From IMG/VR virus record IMGVR_UViG_3300009085_000002, positions 24,966-88,965 of that record: a DNA stretch of 64,000 nt. One strand, written 5' to 3'. Of this stretch, positions 24,801-58,757 are shown piece after piece. How positions within the stretch are numbered: position 1 is the stretch's first letter; each line of letters opens with the position of its first letter. The position numbers were made by a program, and so were the translations under genes. The notes below the pieces were generated by a model. It was not told where the DNA came from and searched no databases. It saw only the letters and a list, made by a program, of their open reading frames with translations. The DNA comes from a virus.

Positions 24801-26875
24801 AAAAAATTGAAGTATTAGGAGAAACTTTACAAAGATTAGAAACTACGTTTAATACTGATTCTAAAGGAGTTGGTAAAAATTTTATAGAAGTACAAACTAA
24901 ATTAGACAATCTACAAAGTTTAGAAGGAGAGTTTTCCAATATTAGTAATATAGGAAATTTACTTAATAATTCTATTTCAGGATTTGCAATTACTGAAGGA
25001 TTATACAATGTTAATAAATACTTTGGAGCTTTAAATCCTTTTAATAGTAGAAGTTTTAATAAAGTAGAAGAAGACTTTAAGAAAGCTACAAATAATGTTA
25101 CTTCTCCAAAGATTAAGCAATTACTTTGGAATGGTATGAAAGCTTATCTTTATAATACTACTGGTACAGATCTATATATAAATAATATAGAACAAGAAAG
25201 AAAAAGAATCTATTTTGATACTTATAAAAAAGATATAAAAGGGCACTACTCTTTAGCTTCTATAGTTAAAGATATACAAGATAAAAAGATAATAAAAAAC
25301 TATTTATTAAGTTCATTCCAACCACAAATTGAAAAGAATGGTAATCCTTCTTTATTAAAATTTAATGCAGCACAGGGAGAATTATTTGATGATAGTATTT
25401 ATTTTCAAGCTTTTTATGACTTATTAAGAAATAAATCTTTAGGGATTTATAATGGTAAAGAATATACTACTTTAGATTTAGCAAATGATTTAGTAAGATA
25501 TACAATGCTAAATGGTAATTTACAAGAATCTAAAGATTTTGCAAGATATATTCCTGTTGATTATTTAAAGTTAAACAATCAATTCTTAAATTATCTTAAT
25601 ACTATAAACTTAGAAGATGATTCTAAATTTGGTATTATAGAAGGAGGTAAAGATTGGGATATATCTAATTTTACAATTCAATTTATACAACATAATCCTT
25701 GGTACATAAACTACGAAGTTACTTCTACAAAAGAGTTATCTAGTATGGATAATAAATCTTTAACTAGTGTTAAGAAGTTTAAGATAGAAAATATAAAAGA
25801 TCTTCCAGTATTTGTTAAAATTGCAACTACTAATAATACTAAAGGATTTAATATTTATAAATTTAATGGAGAATTTTATGAAAAATTAAATGTTTTGGGT
25901 TCTAATTTCTTTACTGAATATAATATGGATAATGATAATATACAATCATCTATATATAGGAATTTTGATCCTTTTATACCTAATAAAACTTTAGTACCTA
26001 ATTCTCCTATTAATCCTATTAATCCTAAAGTATTAGATAAAAATATAGTTACTGAATTTGGAATTAAGGAAGGTAAAAATATAGAACAAATTATGATTAA
26101 TATAAGAGATCATACTAGTTCAGATTTTTATAAACACTTAATAGATCATCTACTTAGAAATAAACAGATGATTCAAGATACTATGGTCTTAATAGATTCT
26201 AAAGTTATTGAAGCGGCTTCTTATAATTCTAGAGATAATTTATTAACAATTAATCCTACTGCACCAGTAAGGAACTTTGAAGATACTTTGATACATGAAC
26301 TATTACATGCTTATACTTCTAGATTAATTAGGAATCCTCAAACTCCTGAACAACAACTAATTGTAATGAGATTACAGAATGTACAGGAGTTATTAAAATC
26401 TAAAATAAAAGAAGGTTTTAAAGGATTAAATCAACAAGAATTAGAATCTTTTGAAAAGAAACTTAAACAATATAAGATTGATGGTAAAGTTACTTTTACT
26501 TCAACCGATTTATCTAAGTATTATGCAACTATTTCTTTACCCGAGCTAATATCTATGACTATAGCAGACCCTATTACTAGAGATTTAATGAAGGATATAG
26601 AAATAGAACCAAATACTTCTTTATTACAGAAAATAAAAGAAATACTTATAGATCTTTTAAATACTCTAATTTCTAAACCAGAATTTTTAACTAATACTGC
26701 TTTTAGTGAAGTGTTAAGTAATACTTTACTGTTAACTTCTAAAGAATCTAATCTTATTGAAATTGAAGAAGGTATTAATGAAGAGAATAATTTTGTAGAT
26801 TACCAAGATGATATTATCTTTACAGAAGAAGAATTAAATGAGTATGATAGTATGAATAAATGTAAAAAACTTTAA
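15896..26875 (+). CDS. Giant virion RNA polymerase protein with C-terminal metalloprotease motif
   Basis: The protein has 3659 residues. At about 2641-2690 a segment with RIPTQKHSSMTK, then VAQMGSDFDVDKLYMYRY, parallels the catalytic double-psi barrel of multisubunit RNA polymerase beta-prime (RxPxxHR then NADFDGD). Asp2681, Asp2683 and Asp2685 would hold the catalytic magnesium. crAss-like phages are known to package such a polymerase and inject it to transcribe early genes. Near the C-terminus, LIHELLHAYTS carries HExxH (His3467, Glu3468, His3471), a zincin-type metalloprotease motif. It may process cargo proteins or cleave host proteins. The N-terminal 600 residues include hydrophobic and coiled-coil parts. 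The length exceeds many family members and suggests fusion of cargo domains. The next gene begins three bases on. Confidence 0.8.
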   Translation: MPDPKLDIRALEELNNSTQSNDIRQKEFGDEDLKKKNLPKLSQEDFEYLANTQTELEPHKAISRPFLTSKYDEPLQPGESIKDNSWIEKHRANNQPWHHEATNAIAGGITKGVFGAIENMGYLLDFTTQLGYNNILDKAESNAVSDAFRQARLKVDEVLPIYKDNPDTFLDGWRATSDILQNVTEFAIPGGIIAKGIGKGVSLLGKLGRYGNLLANSETATEILSTVPTAYLTNRMESARMAVEDFEQNMQMLSPYIKAGQISSEKAAQIAQDEANKIYMRNLPMMWTDILALKGIIKGSKLTRGAYNKTQKQLNRSLFNKVTEFTGQNALEGLEETYQGIAEREATYNTLKRAGIDPKGIYNGNLGERISNYLGDKSLQYEALLGFMAGGMQRLGAQVVSGGFYSNKDRDRDQQLQNDREELLTSTSSNLQGMLQSFIKKETSKQEAINKGYSHEAELWDDIDYINNITAHLSYGTVDKLESVLDVVEQDGIKSFGEESSLTQEDEPQIKTAARELKDKLRFAEKKWLKYSNLPFKSRVSTVNNEMIYTSLEKVGKGLDSKISEIKDDIRKVIESSNFKEHLGNIKLDEPRKAFLGNKDLNAQYTNFIEQTSNDKITELEQLQQDKAGIENYKRNLRTSISESTTPKAIAKAKREEMNDIEKQKEKIVEETNNLKKEKTRENRSKQEYDNLSSRAPNADNISKLDNIDKEIKSNKFLNSRDKEELFKNIKAQRDHLEKIKTQPKVVSTEEEVTKPSEFTEGFTTLEDMGIEPPTGTNKVKDIQIGNHIAKLNYDNTYSFFRKSKEGKLSLLNNPTVSTIKEAKIVLSELNKELDIKESNNQEELSELLSKQDRNSDPDTYTSESNKSVNSNNTQSELNEGSLKQPGSIFDTNKDDKNSGYSSITQAYNTIAWLGRKYRQETRDNNTVIIDLEDELNESSFKLLMDPDKFLPGSKITLEVEDDDSVPMYDLNLRDFESITTWGEYKKSLMENRVFEDLTNEEKDLYISNIPVRIIDEYNNKLGYIHRTEWSDIDRISGDVELDRKNNLELRKSVYEKSSLNTEITYKSYGSLMSAVDNKKDSLKNRFKDPNLVISVWNHETQSLQLSRDKKYKGHKDDILVNTTLVSGIPYVIAKIQKNTYMGIPVTSSKIKDYNKDLSNSLLKVVDIWTKSNSKQPLIPIEQSLVDQIMDMTNNDVRTFRGFRDFIKIFLKDYNTKGKDLKSFDRNDLKVSDADGIIHFTGNSIEFFTGGLDKVLEIGTNTPINSINNLKLILKNVVDNAYINVNLDYMENNNFYVPFIQENKVIDLNNGKSYKDFLKEVLNTNLLSFNIGTEETPNFIYTTQQVITFDSKLNPISTREENNTITTPQSLITKNVNIENKTKEGFNEFFGKYTASLDDFIDEMPLVTKEEDIEIDDPYIMKGFNFYEQSLIINSSLGTILDFVKAADEQNAGLKVNKTLESYKKSIESVRDDYQEIGNKKMTDFYNKWLNNYDKFSNILKLKFQRLRDVHNKGLIGDIEEILNEDFEDTTTLEKSFNDDFYLTLNKANKTTARFRYFLTGIKRLDKNGNPQLYAPGLYKTVNFDEVFSTLQRLLSNIRSNYNTMYNELLQYKNSIDWMPDFLKKLDKSSERTKKEFAVTMGSSYINMKFSMWSQQGKENYFQTWDANANSTSKFLQQQWKDNIVDTNLIILDPKSTEYKLNESISNKLLEDFNKFKESLVTIDNKDIINWLSNLGINVSDGVIKHIRTNNIRIQTSESNKVGVKLSWDQQFETSGIFGNLNEKLKTLLKQQKDGEEINFTDLFNGRPINTFARIIASIEDIISPNSFVIANKTYYPFSLTKFLTDRTRDILEDKMVINALLNNSYSKDSLLLNRMVSRDKGGNIEFLDSSIRKVFDIQYTSPEALRKISDKEGRKDEINEFTPQELEAFQANLFFDTRSKLNNGKDRKVIITLPPLSDKHNLMLLETIAYRPSYIESKAQLSNSDLQVLYSQLVLPDLRRMLVEKENLPDIDKYKEGQNLFYLFPELNKFDEFFDNNGKIVDDILDPNKDYISKIKSILNDFYIKEANTIVNKWKEFGLITKDSRYLNEQYFKENLDNKEFDEQNFLAALDYSINHAIMKSNIYQLYVGDIAQYYKSSKSKSKLDQVKDTIDNVGKRLAGLNATGIDLTNNDENTFDILIAKDISTTSFNIEQLSNTLYNKSFTRQQLLQMNKKTLESEYPYLYPYVYINSTDAQELTTWRDHLYIMNQRGLLDEEVYKEIYDKLEQGKELTSEQLGTVMQPMKPVYFGDVYGENPQFLRKLYVKSSSYPLLSQLTKGTNLDNLRIKLEDYEKETKRNIRVAYESAVKVGSIKNKATLFNEDGIFNEKLDINNHVIKNVPRRHFKIQQDIPYNEAKKEISMGTQGSKLLFDTVRFIKDKVFNGKTGTELYSNYLQLHKELLKIGQKELEDKLNYNSSTGTINIKKLQELLLNEAIERGFSINEIKGLGLKNNKFVIPPYLSGNWKKYQALLTSLVTNKIIKQQFPGIAVVLGSETGYKIKEGTEETINSYNIVYTNKDIKFLKPIRLVKKDIYEKSKVEEEPSKQDLNNGNYITLGSQVILPWRFKDNEGNLINIQDYLNEDNTLNLDKIDPKLLEWIGFRIPTQKHSSMTKIEVVGFLPNLSGDLIIASQDLVAQMGSDFDVDKLYMYRYNYMVEDGILKVGVNDENAKKINQNKIIDIYHQVLSNKEIVKKMMKPLDYGKLKELSDKYKSFIKEDSYNPLSPLWNMDKFFQANSGGKLGVASFALTSVLNAQAQGLNLQFLKDDGSPFEINFGDFKSNGTISGEHVIGDNTRSISDVISAYLSSSVDNEKERILEKLNINNHTFPIIKVLTLMGFDEDVVIPFINQPIIKQYINEVFKLNSKFSQVKGKIGKIAFDNIINSDTYKTNTSIKDLEAISDIGPIEMVKFLTMENPPKDIQIGLLRKFKKIEVLGETLQRLETTFNTDSKGVGKNFIEVQTKLDNLQSLEGEFSNISNIGNLLNNSISGFAITEGLYNVNKYFGALNPFNSRSFNKVEEDFKKATNNVTSPKIKQLLWNGMKAYLYNTTGTDLYINNIEQERKRIYFDTYKKDIKGHYSLASIVKDIQDKKIIKNYLLSSFQPQIEKNGNPSLLKFNAAQGELFDDSIYFQAFYDLLRNKSLGIYNGKEYTTLDLANDLVRYTMLNGNLQESKDFARYIPVDYLKLNNQFLNYLNTINLEDDSKFGIIEGGKDWDISNFTIQFIQHNPWYINYEVTSTKELSSMDNKSLTSVKKFKIENIKDLPVFVKIATTNNTKGFNIYKFNGEFYEKLNVLGSNFFTEYNMDNDNIQSSIYRNFDPFIPNKTLVPNSPINPINPKVLDKNIVTEFGIKEGKNIEQIMINIRDHTSSDFYKHLIDHLLRNKQMIQDTMVLIDSKVIEAASYNSRDNLLTINPTAPVRNFEDTLIHELLHAYTSRLIRNPQTPEQQLIVMRLQNVQELLKSKIKEGFKGLNQQELESFEKKLKQYKIDGKVTFTSTDLSKYYATISLPELISMTIADPITRDLMKDIEIEPNTSLLQKIKEILIDLLNTLISKPEFLTNTAFSEVLSNTLLLTSKESNLIEIEEGINEENNFVDYQDDIIFTEEELNEYDSMNKCKKL

Positions 26876-39379: not shown

Positions 39380-40284
39380 TATATGTCTATAACTTGATTT
39401 ATTTCTATTTGTTTAGGTACTTCAGTTATTACTGGAAATTTAGGCAAAACTCCAACCTCTCTTATAAAATCTTCGTCACAATCTAATAAACGGAGTAACC
39501 TATAATTCTTTTGAAATTCATAAATACCTTGAGAAATACCATATTTATTGATATATTCCGTGGGTATTAATTCTTCAAAAGTATTTCCATATTGAGAATA
39601 TTTTTCACATATTTTCTTAAAATAAGCCTCACCTTTTCCCTCAATACCTTTTATTCCATCAGGAACATCTCCACAAATCATTGATTTCCAGAAACTTATA
39701 TAGGCGCCTTCTACACTAGTTTCAATCCACCAACCTTTATTAAAGTCACTATCTGTTAATAATTCTTTAGATTTACTCTTAGATTCTTCTTTAATTTTAT
39801 AAGAATAGTTAAAGTGTCTGCCTGGCATGTTTTGAAGAATATCCTTATCAGGACTACAAATTATTTTTGTAACTTCTTCTAAACAATCTCCTAATTCTAC
39901 ACAAGTTAATTTATAAAAGATATTTTTATTATCTTTTTCATTAACATAGCCATATATTAAATCTTCATTATACCAATAAGCAACTAAATCATCTGCTTCC
40001 ACCAAATTCATCCATTGTGCATTCCATTTCTCAATTAGATAAGATTTAAGACACTTTAACCATTTAAGTGGACTCTCATACTTACTTCTATTAGATTTAT
40101 AATTAGAATCAATCTTATGCCTAAAATATGGAGAATTTGAAATAAACATTATATAATGAGTTGCTTCTGTTTTTTTAAACATGTTTTGAATTCTTTCATC
40201 AATACTAAGTAAGGACTCTTCTAGAGAATCCTTACTTGAATGATATACTAACCCATCTGCATCAATCAATAAGAGTTTTTTCAT
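39379..40284 (-). CDS. 5'-3' exonuclease / flap endonuclease
   Basis: The protein has 301 residues. The family's acidic residues appear in order: LLIDADGLVYHS (Asp8, Asp10), YKSNRSKY, VEADDLVAYW, CSPDKDI and GDVPDGIKGIEGKGEAYFK, the last being the helix-hairpin-helix DNA-binding region. It is the separate partner of the phage DNA polymerase, removing primers and flaps, as gp6 does in T7. The start overlaps the stop of the preceding gene by 23 bases. Confidence 0.85.
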   Translation of the reverse strand: MKKLLLIDADGLVYHSSKDSLEESLLSIDERIQNMFKKTEATHYIMFISNSPYFRHKIDSNYKSNRSKYESPLKWLKCLKSYLIEKWNAQWMNLVEADDLVAYWYNEDLIYGYVNEKDNKNIFYKLTCVELGDCLEEVTKIICSPDKDILQNMPGRHFNYSYKIKEESKSKSKELLTDSDFNKGWWIETSVEGAYISFWKSMICGDVPDGIKGIEGKGEAYFKKICEKYSQYGNTFEELIPTEYINKYGISQGIYEFQKNYRLLRLLDCDEDFIREVGVLPKFPVITEVPKQIEINQVIDI

Positions 40285-40786
40285 ATTCTAAAAATTCTTT
40301 AGATAATTGTTCTTGTGTTTCTGATTTATAATCTTCTATTGTAGGATTATGAACTTCTAAAAATTCAGATATTATTAAATGAGGTTCCCACATTAATAAT
40401 TTAGTTCTACTAGAAATTCCTAAAGAGTTCATTGATCTCTTTAGTCTGGAAAAATATGTAGGATTTATATTAAAAAATATGCTATTTGCTATTACATAAG
40501 TAGTATTTACTTTTCTATCTTTATTTTTAATTACTAATAAAGCAATAGGGTCCTCTATAAGAATACCTCCAGTAAATTCATAGTAATTAATACCTCTTCT
40601 ACTTATTATGTGATTAATAAAATTATTCTGAATATTTAAACAGTTATCTAGTTTAAACATATTCTTAGTATCTCCATATATATTATTCTTTAACTCTTCT
40701 ATTCTATAATACAACTTATTTTGTAAATTTTTACGTTGAAATATAATAGGACTAAATTCACTTCCTCTTTTTAATATTATTCCCAT
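40262..40786 (-). CDS. Hypothetical protein after the E1-like gene
   Basis: The protein has 174 residues and contains YYEFTGGILIEDPIALLVI and a later KLLMWEPHLIISEFLEVHNP. It is two bases downstream of the E1-like gene and overlaps the exonuclease gene. It may be a fifth part of the ubiquitin-like cassette or may belong to the replication block. I recognise no family. Confidence 0.5.
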   Translation of the reverse strand: MGIILKRGSEFSPIIFQRKNLQNKLYYRIEELKNNIYGDTKNMFKLDNCLNIQNNFINHIISRRGINYYEFTGGILIEDPIALLVIKNKDRKVNTTYVIANSIFFNINPTYFSRLKRSMNSLGISSRTKLLMWEPHLIISEFLEVHNPTIEDYKSETQEQLSKEFLEYEKTLID

Positions 40787-40788
40787 AA

Positions 40789-41448
40789 TTATTTTATTTC
40801 TATATAAAAAGGTTCTCCTACTTCTTTAATACTGAAAGGTATACTACAAATAGGTTCTGAAGAATATTTATTAGTTAAATAATTTGCTACTACTTGAGTT
40901 ATTCTAGCACCTATTAAGCCTGCAAAAAAAGCTGTTTGCTTAAATGTACAAGGACCTTCATCTACTTCTTTATCATCAAATAAAGTTTTTTCATACTCTT
41001 CTTCTTTTCCTGGAGTAACTATATATATTTCATATAAAGTTGCTCTTAGCCTACCATCTATTAACAATTCTCTACTATTTTGAACTTTCCAAGCTTGATA
41101 TACTAATTTTCTAGTTTCCATATTATCTAAAGCTGTAATAGTTATAGGACTACAGAATTCTGAACTATAAGATTGTTTAAAAGTACGTATATAGCCTAAT
41201 TCACAATTTGTTTTAATAGATTCTACTTTATATTTTCCAAGTTGATCTTTTTTAAAAAACTGGCTGCCTATATTATGACTTTCAACTATATCTTTGTCTA
41301 TAATATTATATATAGCTGGAATACTTTTAGTTAAAAAATATAATGCATTACTTCCTATTCCACCACACCCAACTAGTAATATTTCTTCGTTTTGACTCTT
41401 TTCAAACCAAGGAGAATCTTTAGTTCTGTTAAAATATTTTATATCCAT
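40789..41448 (-). CDS. ThiF/E1-type ubiquitin-like activating enzyme
   Basis: The protein has 219 residues. The Rossmann nucleotide site is ILLVGCGGIGSN (Gly27-Gly32). Asp51 and Asp53 in IIDKDIVESHNIGSQFF follow the E1 acid-Asn-Gln pattern. ITALDNMETRK supplies the conserved Asp108, and Cys167 in DEGPCTFKQTA sits where many E1-like proteins have their catalytic Cys. It would adenylate the C-terminus of a ubiquitin-like protein. The neighbouring JAMM, E2-like and beta-grasp genes point to that partner in place of thiamine or molybdopterin synthesis. It is about the size of a stand-alone ThiF core. It starts directly after the JAMM gene's stop. Confidence 0.8.
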   Translation of the reverse strand: MDIKYFNRTKDSPWFEKSQNEEILLVGCGGIGSNALYFLTKSIPAIYNIIDKDIVESHNIGSQFFKKDQLGKYKVESIKTNCELGYIRTFKQSYSSEFCSPITITALDNMETRKLVYQAWKVQNSRELLIDGRLRATLYEIYIVTPGKEEEYEKTLFDDKEVDEGPCTFKQTAFFAGLIGARITQVVANYLTNKYSSEPICSIPFSIKEVGEPFYIEIK

Positions 41449-42531
41449 TTATTCAATGTAAGTTATTAATATATTTTTTATAATTTCAAAGAAATCTTTA
41501 TTTTCATAAGTATCCTTAAAATCCATTAATCTATTTAAGGCTTTTATACAATTATATCCTAATTTAGTTGGAGAATTATAAATACTTTCATGAATTAATT
41601 CTAAATTAATATCCAAACTATTTTCTAAAATATCTAAATCAGCGTCTTTTACAGAACCTAAATATTTAAGAGTTTCTTCTATACTATTGTTAGATTTAGT
41701 TACATCTAAATTTAGCCAAGCACTTAAAAAAGAATCTACATTATTGTTAGATATAATTTGATTATTATCCTTTATAGTAGAACTTTTATTAAAGACTTTA
41801 GATAAAGAATTTCTGTAAGTACTATTATGATTATAAGGATATTCAAAATCAGAATATGAGCTTATATTAGCAACAGAAAGTTCTTTTTTCTTATCTTCTA
41901 AAATTTTAATTCTATTCTTTAACCACTCAGGATTTTCTATATTATTATCTATAATAACCTCTAAATCTCCTATTAATAATATATCTTCTTCTTTAGTATT
42001 CTTAAATGGAGTTAATTTACCTAATGTATTTTTAAACCAACATTCTCTAGTTGTTTTAGATTTAGAAGGAACTGCTATTTTTGCACAATATTCATGCGAA
42101 AAATTAACTATTAAGGATACATAATAATTATAATTATAAGCATTAGTCTCTAACTCTGATAAATCTGTATTTGAGAAAAATGTGCTCATATTATGATGAG
42201 AATGTATTAATCCAGTAGACATGCTAATACCTTCTTTATGTATATCATAAGCATTTATTATTTCTCCATTATATTCAAATTCTGTATAAGCATGTGATCC
42301 TATATTCATAGGATATATAAAATCTGCTAGCACTTCTAGATCCTTTAGGTTATCTATATTTCCTTTAGAAATCTTATAGAATAGTATACCAGACCATTCA
42401 GTACTTCCTACTTTGTAATGTAAATAATTTATAATTTTTAGTAAATCTTTAGTTATTCTTAAAACACCTATTTTACCAATAGATACTTTTTTAACTTCTT
42501 TAATTATATTATTTGATATTGTTTCAGACAT
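41449..42531 (-). CDS. JAMM/JAB metalloprotease (deubiquitinase type)
   Basis: The protein has 360 residues. The catalytic JAMM set is complete: Glu45 in TEWSGILF, then His110-Ser-His112, seven residues, Ser120 and Asp123 in HSHHNMSTFFSNTD. These bind zinc and cut isopeptide or peptide bonds at the C-terminus of ubiquitin-like proteins. The C-terminal 180 residues are helical and acidic, with no motif that I recognise; they may bind substrate. The start overlaps the stop of the E2-like gene by one base, and the E1-like gene follows at once. Confidence 0.85.
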   Translation of the reverse strand: MSETISNNIIKEVKKVSIGKIGVLRITKDLLKIINYLHYKVGSTEWSGILFYKISKGNIDNLKDLEVLADFIYPMNIGSHAYTEFEYNGEIINAYDIHKEGISMSTGLIHSHHNMSTFFSNTDLSELETNAYNYNYYVSLIVNFSHEYCAKIAVPSKSKTTRECWFKNTLGKLTPFKNTKEEDILLIGDLEVIIDNNIENPEWLKNRIKILEDKKKELSVANISSYSDFEYPYNHNSTYRNSLSKVFNKSSTIKDNNQIISNNNVDSFLSAWLNLDVTKSNNSIEETLKYLGSVKDADLDILENSLDINLELIHESIYNSPTKLGYNCIKALNRLMDFKDTYENKDFFEIIKNILITYIE

Positions 42532-43724
42532 TATATAGTTATATTTAATTTTTTATTAATAAGATATTCTTCAAAATTAGACTCTATTTTATCTACTACT
42601 TCTCTTAATATAATTCTATGAATTTGTTTAGGATAATTATCTTCTTTCATATTATTAATAATTTTAGAATATATATCTTTTCCATTAAATTCTAAACAAA
42701 GTTTAGGATCATCATTAATAAAATTATTATCAACTATAGGAGTATAAGAAATATTATTTTTTTGTATATAACAATTTTCTGGATATTTATTTGTTAATAT
42801 AGAATCTATTAAATCTATTGATGATTGACTTAACTTTATTGTATAACAATCTTTTACTATTTCAAAAGTATATTTAAAATTATTTATAGTATTAATAATA
42901 TAATTATAATACATATTATTCAAAAGTTTATTATTCTCATCAGTAGAAAGAATACACTGCGAAAGATTATTAGTTTTTAATAAATTACTAATAAACATAT
43001 AAGGACTACCTTCAATACTTTCCCAACTTAAATAAGAAGGTATACTTATTAATATAGAAGAAAAATCACTAAGCCCACCTTTATATATTTTATTTATAGA
43101 TTTCTGTAACTCTGTATTTCCAAAGCACAAACTACTCCATTGTCCTATCTTATTACTACGAGCATGAGAAAATAAATAATTATTTAAATATTCTGCAATA
43201 GATACAGTAGTTCTTGTCATATTAATATTTTCTACTAGCCATTTAGAATTTGTATATCTGAAAGTAAATTTAAAATATATATCATACATAGTATGAGATA
43301 ATTCAATACTATTTGTAATAGTTGTTTCTGGAAAATATAATGTTAAAGTAATAGTACGACTATCATAAATATTTAGCTCATAAGAATCTTTAGAATATAG
43401 TTTGCATACTGTAGCTTCTAAATAATGTGCAAATTTTTCATTATTAAATTTATGTATTTTGTTAAATAATAATTCCTTTAAATATATTTTTATATCTTTA
43501 TAATTTAGAGGTATAAAGGAATCATGAAAATTAAAGTACGACGCCATACAAATATTAGTACTAGTTAAAGTTTTATAGAATATATAATTTTTAAACACAT
43601 ATTCTTTTATTATTATATATGTATTATTAATATCTATAAAATATTTAGCTTGATGAACCGATTTACTTAACTCCTCTTTTAATTCCTTCTCTGATAACTT
43701 TAATAATTCTTCTGGTATTTGCAT
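42531..43724 (-). CDS. Possible E2-like protein of the ubiquitin-like cassette
   Basis: The protein has 397 residues. At about 180-203 the sequence YLNNYLFSHARSNKIG, then WSSLCFGN, resembles the His-x-Gly-x-Cys-x-Gly-Asn surroundings of prokaryotic E2-like domains, with His187 and Cys200 as candidate active residues. Beta strands such as YFKFTFRY precede it, as in the E2 fold. The match is by eye only. The better evidence is position: it lies between the beta-grasp and JAMM genes and is coupled to the latter. Its N- and C-terminal parts are unassigned. If E2 is wrong, it is a cassette-specific protein of unknown role. Confidence 0.45.
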   Translation of the reverse strand: MQIPEELLKLSEKELKEELSKSVHQAKYFIDINNTYIIIKEYVFKNYIFYKTLTSTNICMASYFNFHDSFIPLNYKDIKIYLKELLFNKIHKFNNEKFAHYLEATVCKLYSKDSYELNIYDSRTITLTLYFPETTITNSIELSHTMYDIYFKFTFRYTNSKWLVENINMTRTTVSIAEYLNNYLFSHARSNKIGQWSSLCFGNTELQKSINKIYKGGLSDFSSILISIPSYLSWESIEGSPYMFISNLLKTNNLSQCILSTDENNKLLNNMYYNYIINTINNFKYTFEIVKDCYTIKLSQSSIDLIDSILTNKYPENCYIQKNNISYTPIVDNNFINDDPKLCLEFNGKDIYSKIINNMKEDNYPKQIHRIILREVVDKIESNFEEYLINKKLNITI

Positions 43725-43742
43725 AATTTATTAAATAAAAGA

Positions 43743-43772
43743 AAGATAGACTATAATACTATAGTCTATCTT
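43743..43772 (-). terminator. Strong hairpin between the ubiquitin-like and E2-like genes
   Basis: A perfect 13-bp inverted repeat (AAGATAGACTATA / TATAGTCTATCTT) has a four-base loop and a T-rich tract (TCTTTTATTT) on the minus-strand side. It starts 10 bases after the stop of the ubiquitin-like gene. It should end most transcripts there, so the ubiquitin-like protein would be made in excess of the enzymes downstream. Confidence 0.8.
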
Positions 43773-43782
43773 ATAGTTAATA

Positions 43783-44301
43783 TTATTTTACTCTTCTTGC
43801 TAAATCTTCAACTTCAGCTTGTAATTCTTTCTTTGTAGTATAATCAACTAATGTATTTTTTTCTATTGCTTCTGAATTTTTTATTACAACATTATCTGAG
43901 TTCTTTGTTATAGTTTTAGTAGCACTTTTCATAGGTTTCTTAGTTATACTATTCCAAAAACCATTTAATTCTTCTGTAGTTGCATGTGTATAATTAAATG
44001 GAACATCTCCTCCATTTTCTTTATACTCTTTAATTTTTTCTTTAACTTCTCTATAAGATAAGTCTACTCCAGATTTAGTCTTAATAGGTACTACAAATAA
44101 CAAACAATCAATAGCAGGTAGTACTGCTTCATCTAATTCATAAGTATCGTGTGTAGCTCTGTCAATTAACTTTACAGAGCCCCAATTAATACCATATGAT
44201 GATAATTCTGAGCATAGTTCTCCTCTAGTGCGAGCACTAGTCTTTACTGTAATAACATCTTGTTGAGTTAACAACTTTAATTTCACAACACGTGTTGTCA
44301 T
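43783..44301 (-). CDS. Ubiquitin-like (beta-grasp) protein, PRTRC-C-like
   Basis: The protein has 172 residues. Residues 4-75 read as a beta-grasp fold: strand VVKLKLL, strand DVITVKT, helix TRGELCSEL, strand SVKLIDRAT, strand DTYELDEAVLPA, and a final strand LLFVVPIKTKSG. Size and the DCLLFVVPxK end resemble the ubiquitin-like protein C of PRTRC systems. The rest is a helical tail with no C-terminal Gly. If it is conjugated, it must first be cut, perhaps after Gly78 (KTKSG) or Gly98 (ENGG), a job for the JAMM protease nearby. It is first in the cassette. Confidence 0.6.
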   Translation of the reverse strand: MTTRVVKLKLLTQQDVITVKTSARTRGELCSELSSYGINWGSVKLIDRATHDTYELDEAVLPAIDCLLFVVPIKTKSGVDLSYREVKEKIKEYKENGGDVPFNYTHATTEELNGFWNSITKKPMKSATKTITKNSDNVVIKNSEAIEKNTLVDYTTKKELQAEVEDLARRVK

Positions 44302-44329: not shown

Positions 44330-45037
44330 CTACCAAATAATTTCAGATTTATTTCTTAACTTTAATTCTTCATTTGCCAATAAAAAACACTTGCTTCCTG
44401 TAAATGCTATAGGTGCTTGTTTAAGATTAGCTTGCTGTGTAGGACTTGGATGAGATGTATTAATTATACAATGAGTTCTATTATCTATTATATGTCCTAC
44501 TTTTTGAGCATCTCTACCGAATAGTAGCCAAATTAGATCTGGTTGCTTATTCAAAACTTTTATTACATATAAAGTAAATAATTCCCAATATTTAGTATGA
44601 GATTTTGGTTTACCTTTAATAACAGTTTGAGCTATATTATATAAAAATACTCCTTGTTTTGCCCATCTAGTTAAGTCTAATTCATCTAAAGTAAGAGTAT
44701 TAGGGTAACATTCTTTAACTTCTTTTAATATATTAACTAAAGATGGGCTAGGATATAAACTGTTTGAATTACTAAAGGCTAATCCATCATAAGTATAAAT
44801 TCTATTTGGCTCTACTGTAGGATAAGGATCCTGTCCTATTATTACAATTTTAACTTTATTTAAAGGAGTTTCTCTAAAAGCTCTAAATTGGTATTCAGCA
44901 CCTTTTTCTGGTATTATTTCATTAATAGATCTTTCTTGATTAATTAATTTTATCTGAGTACTAAAATGATCTGATTCTAAAGAATCTTTTAATTCTTCAT
45001 ACCAATCTTCTGAAAAGTATTGTTTATATTTATTCAT
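44330..45037 (-). CDS. ung: Uracil-DNA glycosylase, family 1
   Basis: The protein has 235 residues, full length for the family. The water-activating loop is IIGQDPYP (Asp70), and the Leu-loop motif HPSP is at 196-199 in NTSHPSPTQQ. The region FLYNIAQTVIKGKPKSH matches the uracil pocket LLLN...G...SH. It removes uracil from DNA made by cytosine deamination or dUTP incorporation. Uracil-DNA glycosylase is common in crAss-like replication blocks. It overlaps the preceding gene by eight bases. Confidence 0.9.
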   Translation of the reverse strand: MNKYKQYFSEDWYEELKDSLESDHFSTQIKLINQERSINEIIPEKGAEYQFRAFRETPLNKVKIVIIGQDPYPTVEPNRIYTYDGLAFSNSNSLYPSPSLVNILKEVKECYPNTLTLDELDLTRWAKQGVFLYNIAQTVIKGKPKSHTKYWELFTLYVIKVLNKQPDLIWLLFGRDAQKVGHIIDNRTHCIINTSHPSPTQQANLKQAPIAFTGSKCFLLANEELKLRNKSEIIW

Positions 45038-56228: not shown

Positions 56229-58757
56229 TTATTCAATTAATTTATTATTTATTGTTTTTACTGGAATAGGACTTTCTAATAAGAGTGTAGTATCAGAATA
56301 ATCTAATAATTTTAATTCTTTGTTTGGTTTAGTTGGTTCGGCAATGTACATATTAGTAAAAATCTCTGGAATTACTCCTGAAGTATCAACTAAAAAAGGT
56401 TTACCTAATTCAACCACATCTATACCGTACATATCTGCTACTGCGTTATTTATTCTATTTTCTAAACTTTCTTCTAATACATATTTTCTAAACTGTTCAA
56501 AAGTAATTTCTTTAAACTCATAATCAGGCCTATTACTATACACATGACCAGGTTCCTCACCATATTTATGATACATTAGGCTTCTTTCATCTTGATAATA
56601 TGTTTTATAATACTTACATCCATAATTTTCATCAAACCATTTACCTATGATAAAAGCTTCTTCTTTATCTTTAGGTTTAATACACCATTTTTCTGGTAGA
56701 ATAAAAGAATCTTTCATTTCTGTTTCTATCATTTTATGATACTCTTCTATAGCTTTACTACAAAATGTACCATTGGTCATGCTCATAACTATTTTATGGT
56801 CACATTTAAAATTAATTTTTTTTATAATAGAATCTTCGCAAAATTTACATATTTCTTCATCTTTATTAGAAATATCTTTTGATTTATCTACTTTCTCTAA
56901 TACAAAATGAGGAAAAGTAAAGTGTTCTAATTCAACACCAATATCAGCTAAATCTTTTTTTACCTCCTGTACTAATCCTATATATAAATCCATTTTAGGG
57001 ATCCATTCCATCTTCCATCCCCTTTCACCATATTTTGCTTTTCTTAATATTTTAACTTTATCTCCAGGTTTATATCTAACATCTAAAGGATAAGTATCAT
57101 CTTCTTTTCTATCTTCAGTAACTATTTCTGCCCATTTACCATCTTTATATATGGTAGGATTTGAACACGTACGACTATCACATTTAATTCCATTAGATGA
57201 ATATACAACAGAATTGTTTGAATCAAAATTCCAAAATACTTCTTTATCTGCTTCAGAGTATGGAATAACTTCTCTTATTATTCCTACTTCCTCCTTGTTA
57301 ATAGACTTAAACTTAATTCCTATAGTATACTTATCATGAGCATATTTTAATAAAGCTTCTTTAACTTCTTCTTCAGAAGCTTCAATAGAATCATTTCTTA
57401 TACCTAATTTACTTCCCCATTTTCCTGCCCAAAGACCATATCCATAGTATTCATTTCCATTTCTATAAGTAGAATATATATAACTATTATTTAACTTATT
57501 ATCCTTGTACCACTTACTAATTTCAAATTTAGTTTCTTTATTTTCTTTCATATAGCCATTTTCTTTACACCAGTCTTCGTAAGACATAATTTCATAGTTA
57601 TTTTTATTATACCAATCAAAACAATCAAAGGCTTTATCCACTAATGAAATTACTGAATTTTCTTTATATCTATCCCAACGACCTGTTGCCCAATAATATC
57701 CTAAATTTTTAGTTACAAAATCCCACTCTTCTTGAGTTTTTACATGAACTGCTTTAAGTTTATTTGTTGTAGTTTCAGAATTTTGTTTAGGTTCATCTTT
57801 AGATAATAATTCTTCTGAGAATTCCTTAGCTTCTTTTAAAGTTGCAAACCATTTAATTCCTTCAGTTTTTTCTGTACTTTCGCTAATTGCGAAATTCATA
57901 GAATAGTTTTGTTCACATTGTATATAAGGAGTAGTATAAGTATCATTAATAATTATGTAAGGTTTTCCTTTAATTAAGGGTTCTAATCTTGTTAATAATC
58001 TGTCTTGTAAAGGAACTATATAACTACCAACACTCCATTTTTCAATAAGCATATTATCTTTTTTAGCTCCTATCTTTAATACTCCATTATCATCAAATAA
58101 ATCTAAGAGATTTAGTGAAATAAATTTATTCTGTTCTACACAAGTGTTTAACCATTTCTTTTCTTCTAGAGTTGCTAATCTGTCTGGCTTAGAATTATAA
58201 TCTGCCATAGCTGCTTTTTTTAAAAAAAACTCATGTCCAGGTGATATTGCTATATTATTACATTTATAAGGATTAGGGGATACATAATCAAATATCCATC
58301 CATCTCTATAATAAATTTCTCCTATAACTAATTTAATTGAAGTTAGAAATTTATCTGGGTGTCCTTCTGGTAAATACTGCTGTATTTCTGATAAATCTTC
58401 TAATAATACCGGCTTCCAATCAAGACCAATCCAATCATGTATTTTAACATAGTATCCGATATATATTCTTTCATCATAATAAAATCTATTATTCCAAGGT
58501 TGTGCTGCTGTTGAACATTTACCATAGTAGGAGCCAGCATACTTATACCATCTTCCAGGTATAAACTTATTAAATTGCTTATCATACTCTTCTTTAGTAG
58601 ATTCTACAAAAGCACCCACTTCATCTCTAAATAAGTCTTCCCATATATAAATATCATCAAATTCACAACAAACAGGTTTATCTTTATCTATATCATATAT
58701 TTTATCTTTACAATTAAACCCTACACAGGATTCTATACATTTTACGTATTTTTTCAT
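56229..58757 (-). CDS. Large protein with repeated SH3-like WYK modules, unknown
   Basis: The protein has 842 residues and is built of related units of about 90-130 residues. Recurrent elements include FIPGRWYKYAG, FEISKWYKDN, GKPYIIINDT and KPGDKVKILRKAKYGERGW; the latter resembles SH3-like or KOW-like barrels. Cys are common near the N-terminus (KCIESCVGFNCKDK). There is no signal peptide or membrane helix. Large modular proteins of this sort are found in Bacteroidetes phages with unknown function. It might be a host-takeover protein or a binder of several partners. Confidence 0.5.
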   Translation of the reverse strand: MKKYVKCIESCVGFNCKDKIYDIDKDKPVCCEFDDIYIWEDLFRDEVGAFVESTKEEYDKQFNKFIPGRWYKYAGSYYGKCSTAAQPWNNRFYYDERIYIGYYVKIHDWIGLDWKPVLLEDLSEIQQYLPEGHPDKFLTSIKLVIGEIYYRDGWIFDYVSPNPYKCNNIAISPGHEFFLKKAAMADYNSKPDRLATLEEKKWLNTCVEQNKFISLNLLDLFDDNGVLKIGAKKDNMLIEKWSVGSYIVPLQDRLLTRLEPLIKGKPYIIINDTYTTPYIQCEQNYSMNFAISESTEKTEGIKWFATLKEAKEFSEELLSKDEPKQNSETTTNKLKAVHVKTQEEWDFVTKNLGYYWATGRWDRYKENSVISLVDKAFDCFDWYNKNNYEIMSYEDWCKENGYMKENKETKFEISKWYKDNKLNNSYIYSTYRNGNEYYGYGLWAGKWGSKLGIRNDSIEASEEEVKEALLKYAHDKYTIGIKFKSINKEEVGIIREVIPYSEADKEVFWNFDSNNSVVYSSNGIKCDSRTCSNPTIYKDGKWAEIVTEDRKEDDTYPLDVRYKPGDKVKILRKAKYGERGWKMEWIPKMDLYIGLVQEVKKDLADIGVELEHFTFPHFVLEKVDKSKDISNKDEEICKFCEDSIIKKINFKCDHKIVMSMTNGTFCSKAIEEYHKMIETEMKDSFILPEKWCIKPKDKEEAFIIGKWFDENYGCKYYKTYYQDERSLMYHKYGEEPGHVYSNRPDYEFKEITFEQFRKYVLEESLENRINNAVADMYGIDVVELGKPFLVDTSGVIPEIFTNMYIAEPTKPNKELKLLDYSDTTLLLESPIPVKTINNKLIE

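Follow-up and report, generated by a model that had tools for sequence, protein, structure and literature searches.

A candidate ubiquitin-like conjugation cassette in the replication gene block of crAss-like phages

We analyzed a 64,000-nucleotide stretch of the virus record IMGVR_UViG_3300009085_000002 (hereafter the window; positions 24966–88965 of the 88,965-base record) and found on its minus strand, at 40789–44301, four adjacent genes that together would form a phage cascade for attaching and removing a ubiquitin-like tag, with the tag kept in excess by a leaky terminator and with targets belonging to the replication stage; we assign this reading a probability of about 0.72. The cassette is carried by a large family of bacterial viruses and lies within their DNA-replication gene block. 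A phage-encoded set of ubiquitin-like modifier, E1 and JAMM peptidase is well supported by fold, motifs, synteny and co-inheritance, and we consider it quite likely that the fourth product, a protein of 397 residues, functions in an E2-like manner. The four open reading frames lie where the initial annotation had placed them (40789–41448, 41449–42531, 42531–43724 and 43783–44301). In the order of transcription, the region encodes a uracil-DNA glycosylase (UDG), the 172-residue modifier, the 397-residue protein, the 360-residue JAMM protein, the 219-residue E1-like protein, a 174-residue protein and a 5'-3' exonuclease. The genes for the 397-residue protein, JAMM and E1 overlap or abut; the modifier gene is followed by a gap, with a median of about 55 bases.

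Gene order was assessed in 139 loci obtained from two scans of viral contigs, one genome scan and named phages; these loci are not all independent, and 50 were left once close relatives were removed. The count was made with profiles built from the four families and includes a few loci in which one gene is split or an additional match occurs. Unlinked E1 and JAMM genes had been set beforehand as the outcome that would speak against a common system; the two genes were found linked, and the complete order of modifier, E2 candidate, JAMM and E1 was present in 129 of the 139 loci, including those of the cultured phages crAss001, DAC15 and Flavobacterium phage FpV4. Several of the remaining ten loci were visibly cut at a contig end (e.g., L078, L102 and L147). 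The pairwise distances of the four proteins correlated across the 50 non-redundant loci (Mantel r 0.67–0.84, p = 0.001), indicating that the four cassette genes travel together; homologues mostly shared 15–30% identity, and E1 homologues about 30–60%. A tblastn search with the E1 matched 75 phage records; crAss001 (Steigviridae) and several crAss-like phages from the human gut are among these, and 29 of the records are from Flavobacterium phages. A scan of 84,980 prokaryote species genomes matched no more than four contigs, all of them short pieces of metagenome-assembled genomes; three of the four contained a linked cassette and are probably binned phage DNA. The crAss-like placement proposed in the initial annotation was borne out, as virion proteins of the window match crAss-like phages and crAss001 has the same cassette between primase and UDG. 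Across the annotated records, the cassette was located between these two genes or beside UDG.

The first gene of the cassette (43783–44301, minus strand) encodes the modifier. An AlphaFold2 model computed on 58 homologues (pLDDT 85.6) predicted a beta-beta-alpha-beta-beta domain in residues 1–72, followed by a flexible segment (IKTKSG, ending at residue 78) and a helical C-terminal extension. When the model was compared with the PDB using Foldseek, its neighbors were ubiquitin, NEDD8, UBX and other beta-grasp domains, with a TM score (target) of up to 0.73; the beta-grasp fold claimed for this protein from its letters alone therefore agrees with the predicted structure. Gly78 (codon at 44068–44070, minus strand) was invariant in 62/62 homologues, and no other residue of the family was. 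The modifier stops one residue past KSG in four phages, and three and five residues past it in two more, indicating that Gly78 is very probably the reactive end. Judging from these sequences, trimming would expose this end, in the manner of ubiquitin and SUMO precursors, and the JAMM protein is the most evident candidate for that step. A seeming second modifier gene in one locus (L103) was a spurious match.

The E1-like protein (40789–41448, minus strand; phage family phrog_15670) matched Pfam ThiF above the cut-off (8e-15) and its PHROG family at 4.9e-37 in single-sequence scans; its profile matches in the PDB included ThiF, MoeB and UBA1, with UBA5 as the best. Residues G27, G29, D51, D53, N59, K74, D108 and C167 were present in 63/63 homologues, which covers the GxGGxGS loop, the D-x-D, the Asn, Lys and further Asp, and the candidate thioester Cys167 in CTFKQT (codon at 40948–40950, minus strand). 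The Gln of the N-x-x-R-Q motif was retained in 62/63 homologues and the N-terminal R8 in 60/63. The JAMM gene (41449–42531, minus strand) was identified by its motif residues and by a match to the PRTRC_A profile of plasmids; its match to Prok-JAB was weak and below the cut-off in a single-sequence Pfam scan. The motif, reported as intact in the initial annotation, is indeed so: E45 and HSH(110–112)-x7-S120-x2-D123 are present in the window protein, the latter part within HSHHNMSTFFSNTD (42163–42204, minus strand), and E45, H110, H112, S120 and D123 were found in 64/64 aligned homologues. A second homologue set (n = 39–42) repeated the invariance, save for alignment gaps and one JAMM His that was misaligned in one sequence. 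Some E1 homologues (L002 8539–9696, L067 9260–10693 and L057 9500–10702; crAss001 gp76 is among such proteins) have N-terminal extensions of 150–250 residues. Group I introns (Rfam RF00028, 87 and 70 bits) split the JAMM gene between HxH and SxxD at L064 8752–9054 and L082 8145–8357, respectively; L060 and L086 have a split at the same site, where no Rfam match exceeded the threshold, and in L100 the gene is split by about 1.2 kb.

The 397-residue protein (42531–43724, minus strand; phage family phrog_15310) is the probable E2-like thioester enzyme. Residues H187, C200, G202, E235, S236, G239 and P241 were invariant in 63/63 homologues and in 39/39 further ones; Cys200 (codon at 43125–43127, minus strand) is the candidate active-site residue, and the codon of His187 lies at 43164–43166 on the same strand. 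The UBC fold of E2 enzymes runs in the order of a helix, a four-strand meander, a loop with His or Asn, the Cys and a helix. The AlphaFold2 model of the 397-residue protein (pLDDT 90.7) showed a helix at 95–107, strands at 115–121, 124–137, 143–158 and 161–175, a loop that includes Y183 and H187, followed by C200 and a pair of helices, an order of elements that, in the model, is compatible with that of an E2. Scans of this protein and of the modifier with Pfam, NCBIfam, PHROGs and PADLOC, singly and as families, returned only nameless PHROGs. We also compared the protein with PRTRC_B, the E2-like protein of PRTRC plasmids. The best local alignment set Cys on Cys with the Cys motifs in register, and among 92 unrelated decoy profiles the match ranked 1st of 93 from the phage side and 2nd of 93 from the PRTRC side; as a comparison of profiles, this decoy test is suggestive only. 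The corresponding comparison with PRTRC_F gave no match.

Directly after the modifier gene, and before that of the 397-residue protein, the window contains a terminator-like hairpin (43743–43772, minus strand) with a 13 bp stem, a 4 nt loop and a T-rich tail (folding z = −4.1), which was found by a pattern scan too. The 60 nt past the modifier stop codon were structured (z < −2) in 90 of 105 distinct loci (86%; mean z −3.66), whereas the share at control junctions was 10% before the modifier gene, 16% after the E2 candidate, 16% after JAMM and 2% after E1. The position of the hairpin is constant among loci and its sequence differs. The presence of such a hairpin at this place in 90/105 loci is new here. 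We infer that transcription terminates at the hairpin; a terminator that is partly read through would supply the modifier in larger amounts than the enzymes, which is what a tagging system requires, and the location directly behind the modifier gene therefore suggests an excess of modifier over the enzymes. Of six PRTRC plasmid clusters, two (L090 and L099) likewise have a G+C-rich terminator-like hairpin directly behind gene C.

We propose that the JAMM peptidase would trim the modifier precursor behind Gly78, whereupon the E1 would adenylate Gly78 and load the modifier onto Cys167. The tag would then be handed to Cys200 of the 397-residue protein, with the help of His187, and be attached to lysines of its targets; no E3 is recognizable, and the product of the fifth gene may confer specificity. 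The JAMM peptidase would also reverse the tagging, and the leaky terminator behind the modifier gene would keep the tag above the level of the enzymes. The middle genes of crAss001 have replication functions and are transcribed 10–30 min post infection, and host transcription falls genome-wide at 10–30 min (PMC8375218); by its position, the cassette belongs among the middle genes. Since it lies within this block, the likeliest targets would be phage replication or repair proteins, or host proteins of the same stage, e.g., those of the transcription or replication machinery. The near-universal retention of the cassette at one replication-block site makes a core function likelier than that of an accessory anti-defence gene, and reversible protein tagging in the middle, replication phase of infection is the most likely role. 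A wider formulation, that crAss-like and related Bacteroidota phages possess in a conserved replication module a complete cascade of E1, E2, JAMM and modifier, that it tags replisome or host proteins as a required step of infection, and that it uses a divergent or new E2 and a dose-setting leaky terminator, is put forward tentatively, as somewhat less likely than not.

Several observations weigh against a conjugation cascade. In the N-x-x-R-Q motif of the E1 the Arg is missing, its place being taken by Gly, Thr or Ser in almost all homologues; therefore, the intact E1 nucleotide site described in the initial annotation is slightly too strong a wording, its Asp residues, Lys and Cys167 being invariant in 63/63 homologues and its ThiF match firm. 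Most modifiers have a long extension past Gly78 (median 126 residues) and would therefore require processing, and the modifier core gave no alignment with PRTRC_C in a profile comparison. No E3 was found. The jumbo Xanthomonas phage PhiXhv-15 has a related E1-like gene (L105 4953–5636) beside which the other three genes are unrecognizable. The 397-residue protein has no Pfam or PDB sequence match; a Foldseek search of its model against the PDB gave no significant match, the best E2 being the Ube2W complex 8a58_A (E = 0.36, target TM 0.39), and hhalign comparisons with PRTRC_B (full, core, local and global) were not significant (P = 0.014).

The E2 is thus the weak link of the cascade, plausible from its active-site pattern, its position and the order of its elements, and not significant in sequence and fold searches. 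Because of these searches, and because the long N- and C-terminal regions of the protein are without a known fold, we considered whether it may instead be an unrelated Cys enzyme or a scaffold, the tag being conjugated directly from the E1 or onto the 397-residue protein itself. We regard this as unlikely given that the invariant H...C-x-G pattern stands at the PRTRC_B position, that the predicted order is helix, four strands, H/Cys loop and helices, and that the best local PRTRC_B alignment lands Cys on Cys. The possible E2-type Cys site of the initial annotation therefore stands as a strictly conserved feature, with C200 and H187 retained in both homologue sets, and lacks a significant profile or fold match; an E2-like function is probable, and E2 homology is unproven.

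Another reading is a sulfur-carrier chemistry, with a ThiS/MoaD-like modifier and a ThiF/MoeB-like E1 serving a sulfur-containing cofactor or a tRNA or nucleotide modification and forming no protein conjugates. The GenBank names agree with this in part: crAss001 gp76, the E1, is a 'thiamine biosynthesis protein' and gp77 a 'metalloprotease domain containing protein', other genes of the set in crAss001 and relatives are labelled hypothetical, and one depositor labels an E1 homologue 'E1 enzyme family protein'. The best NCBIfam matches of the E1 are ThiF/MoeB subfamilies, far below the cut-off, and JAMM, ubiquitin-like and E1 genes are found together in sulfur operons too (Iyer 2006, PMC1779556). 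However, no sulfurtransferase, ThiG or MoaE-like partner is annotated beside the cassette in the examined relatives, and no sulfurtransferase or ThiG partner was present among the scanned genes neighboring the window cassette. Moreover, a fourth protein with invariant Cys and His sits between modifier and JAMM, most modifiers extend past the Gly and the location is the replication block, all of which render sulfur chemistry improbable. Anti-defence genes are usually scattered and patchy, whereas here the whole set, E1 Cys and E2-like Cys included, is strictly conserved at one core location, and no host defence target was identified. It is accordingly just as improbable that the set mainly interferes with host ubiquitin-like immunity (Bil, CBASS Cap2/Cap3 or Bub), with the intact JAMM removing host tags by cleavage and the phage modifier and E1 serving as decoys, even though host systems are described as using the same chemistry against phage (PMC10097602; Bil papers cited in PMC13373217).

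Returning to the conjugation cascade, we compared it with known systems. PRTRC plasmid clusters have the order ParB, E, C (ubiquitin-like), F, B (E2-like), A (JAMM) and ThiF; on the matching description, they appear to correspond to the operon type 6d described by Iyer, Burroughs and Aravind in 2006 (PMC1779556). Phages and plasmids have in common the order of modifier, E2-like protein, JAMM and E1, a C-x-G Cys motif and a Lys-(Ser-)Gly modifier end. The phage E1 matched the PRTRC ThiF profile with a probability of 98.7–99.1% (P = 5e-19), and the phage JAMM core matched the PRTRC_A profile with 81.5% (P = 1.1e-5); these profile comparisons support a shared ancestry in at least two parts, E1 and JAMM. 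The phage system differs in the long modifier extension of most phages, in an E2 candidate that has 397 residues and is not significantly alignable, in its replication-block site and in its E1 without the RQ Arg, which is invariant in PRTRC ThiF. In a test of PRTRC order, the four shared roles were in order and the phage cassette had no F equivalent; the examined records showed no ParB-related protein, E or F next to the cassette, either by annotation or by search. The NCBIfam PRTRC cut-offs were missed by a wide margin (PRTRC_ThiF 30 bits vs 144.75, PRTRC_A 13.4 vs 101.8; B and C without a match). Searching plasmids with the phage E1 gave only generic ThiF, MoeB and CBASS-type matches and one Deinococcus PRTRC match. 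Therefore, the cassette would work like PRTRC and is not a member as PRTRC is defined.

In UFM1- and SUMO-type systems, the precursor likewise extends past the reactive Gly, and the phage E1 profile matches UBA5 best; such precursors are processed by Cys proteases, whereas the sole processing candidate in the phage is the JAMM protein. The Bil (BilABCD) and Bub operons share the four-part set of ubiquitin-like protein, E1, E2 and JAMM peptidase. Bil defends the host with a tag of two domains, similar to ISG15, and with a large E1 of which one half is inactive (PMC11354881); in contrast, the phage tag is single-domain in the AlphaFold2 model, the E1 is minimal at 219 residues and the location is viral, which sets the cassette outside Bil. 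CBASS Cap2/Cap3 (an E1-E2 fusion and a JAB) uses the same E1-E2-JAB chemistry, and Cap2 and E1-E2 models were among the profile matches; however, the phage genes are separate, include their own modifier, lack a CD-NTase and are carried by the virus, not by the host. Lambda-type tail proteins gpI and gpK (ubiquitin-like TAPI and JAB/NlpC TAPK) are also a phage-carried ubiquitin-like and JAMM pair, but they lack an E1 or E2-like protein and are tail-assembly genes outside a replication block (PMC1779556).

Searches of open papers that paired crAss-like phages with ubiquitin, ThiF or metalloprotease turned up no account of the cassette. Complete ubiquitin-style machines have so far come mainly from cells and plasmids, and those of bacteria are known from host defences and plasmids; here, a virus appears to own the full set, at a position suggesting a core role. 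A full set in cultured phages is surprising, with an E2 and a chemistry that we infer. As phages with the cassette are culturable on Bacteroides and Flavobacterium, ubiquitin-like tagging by a bacterial virus is directly testable, including its targets and the workings of a minimal E1-E2 pair.

Among the neighboring genes, UDG (44330–45037, minus strand; Pfam UDG 5.7e-16) lies outside the tagging chemistry and was found in 14 of 20 tested records with the cassette. In the same block, an open reading frame of 842 residues at 56229–58757 belongs to no PHROG family, and tblastn found nothing like it among 50,697 phage records. The fifth gene, directly 3' of the E1 (40262–40786, minus strand; 174 residues), is fast-evolving, a gene of this kind stands behind E1 in most loci, and its product is possibly a specificity factor of tagging. 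Iterated profiles joined 48 of 82 genes downstream of E1 into its family, and many of the others occupy the same position with a similar size.

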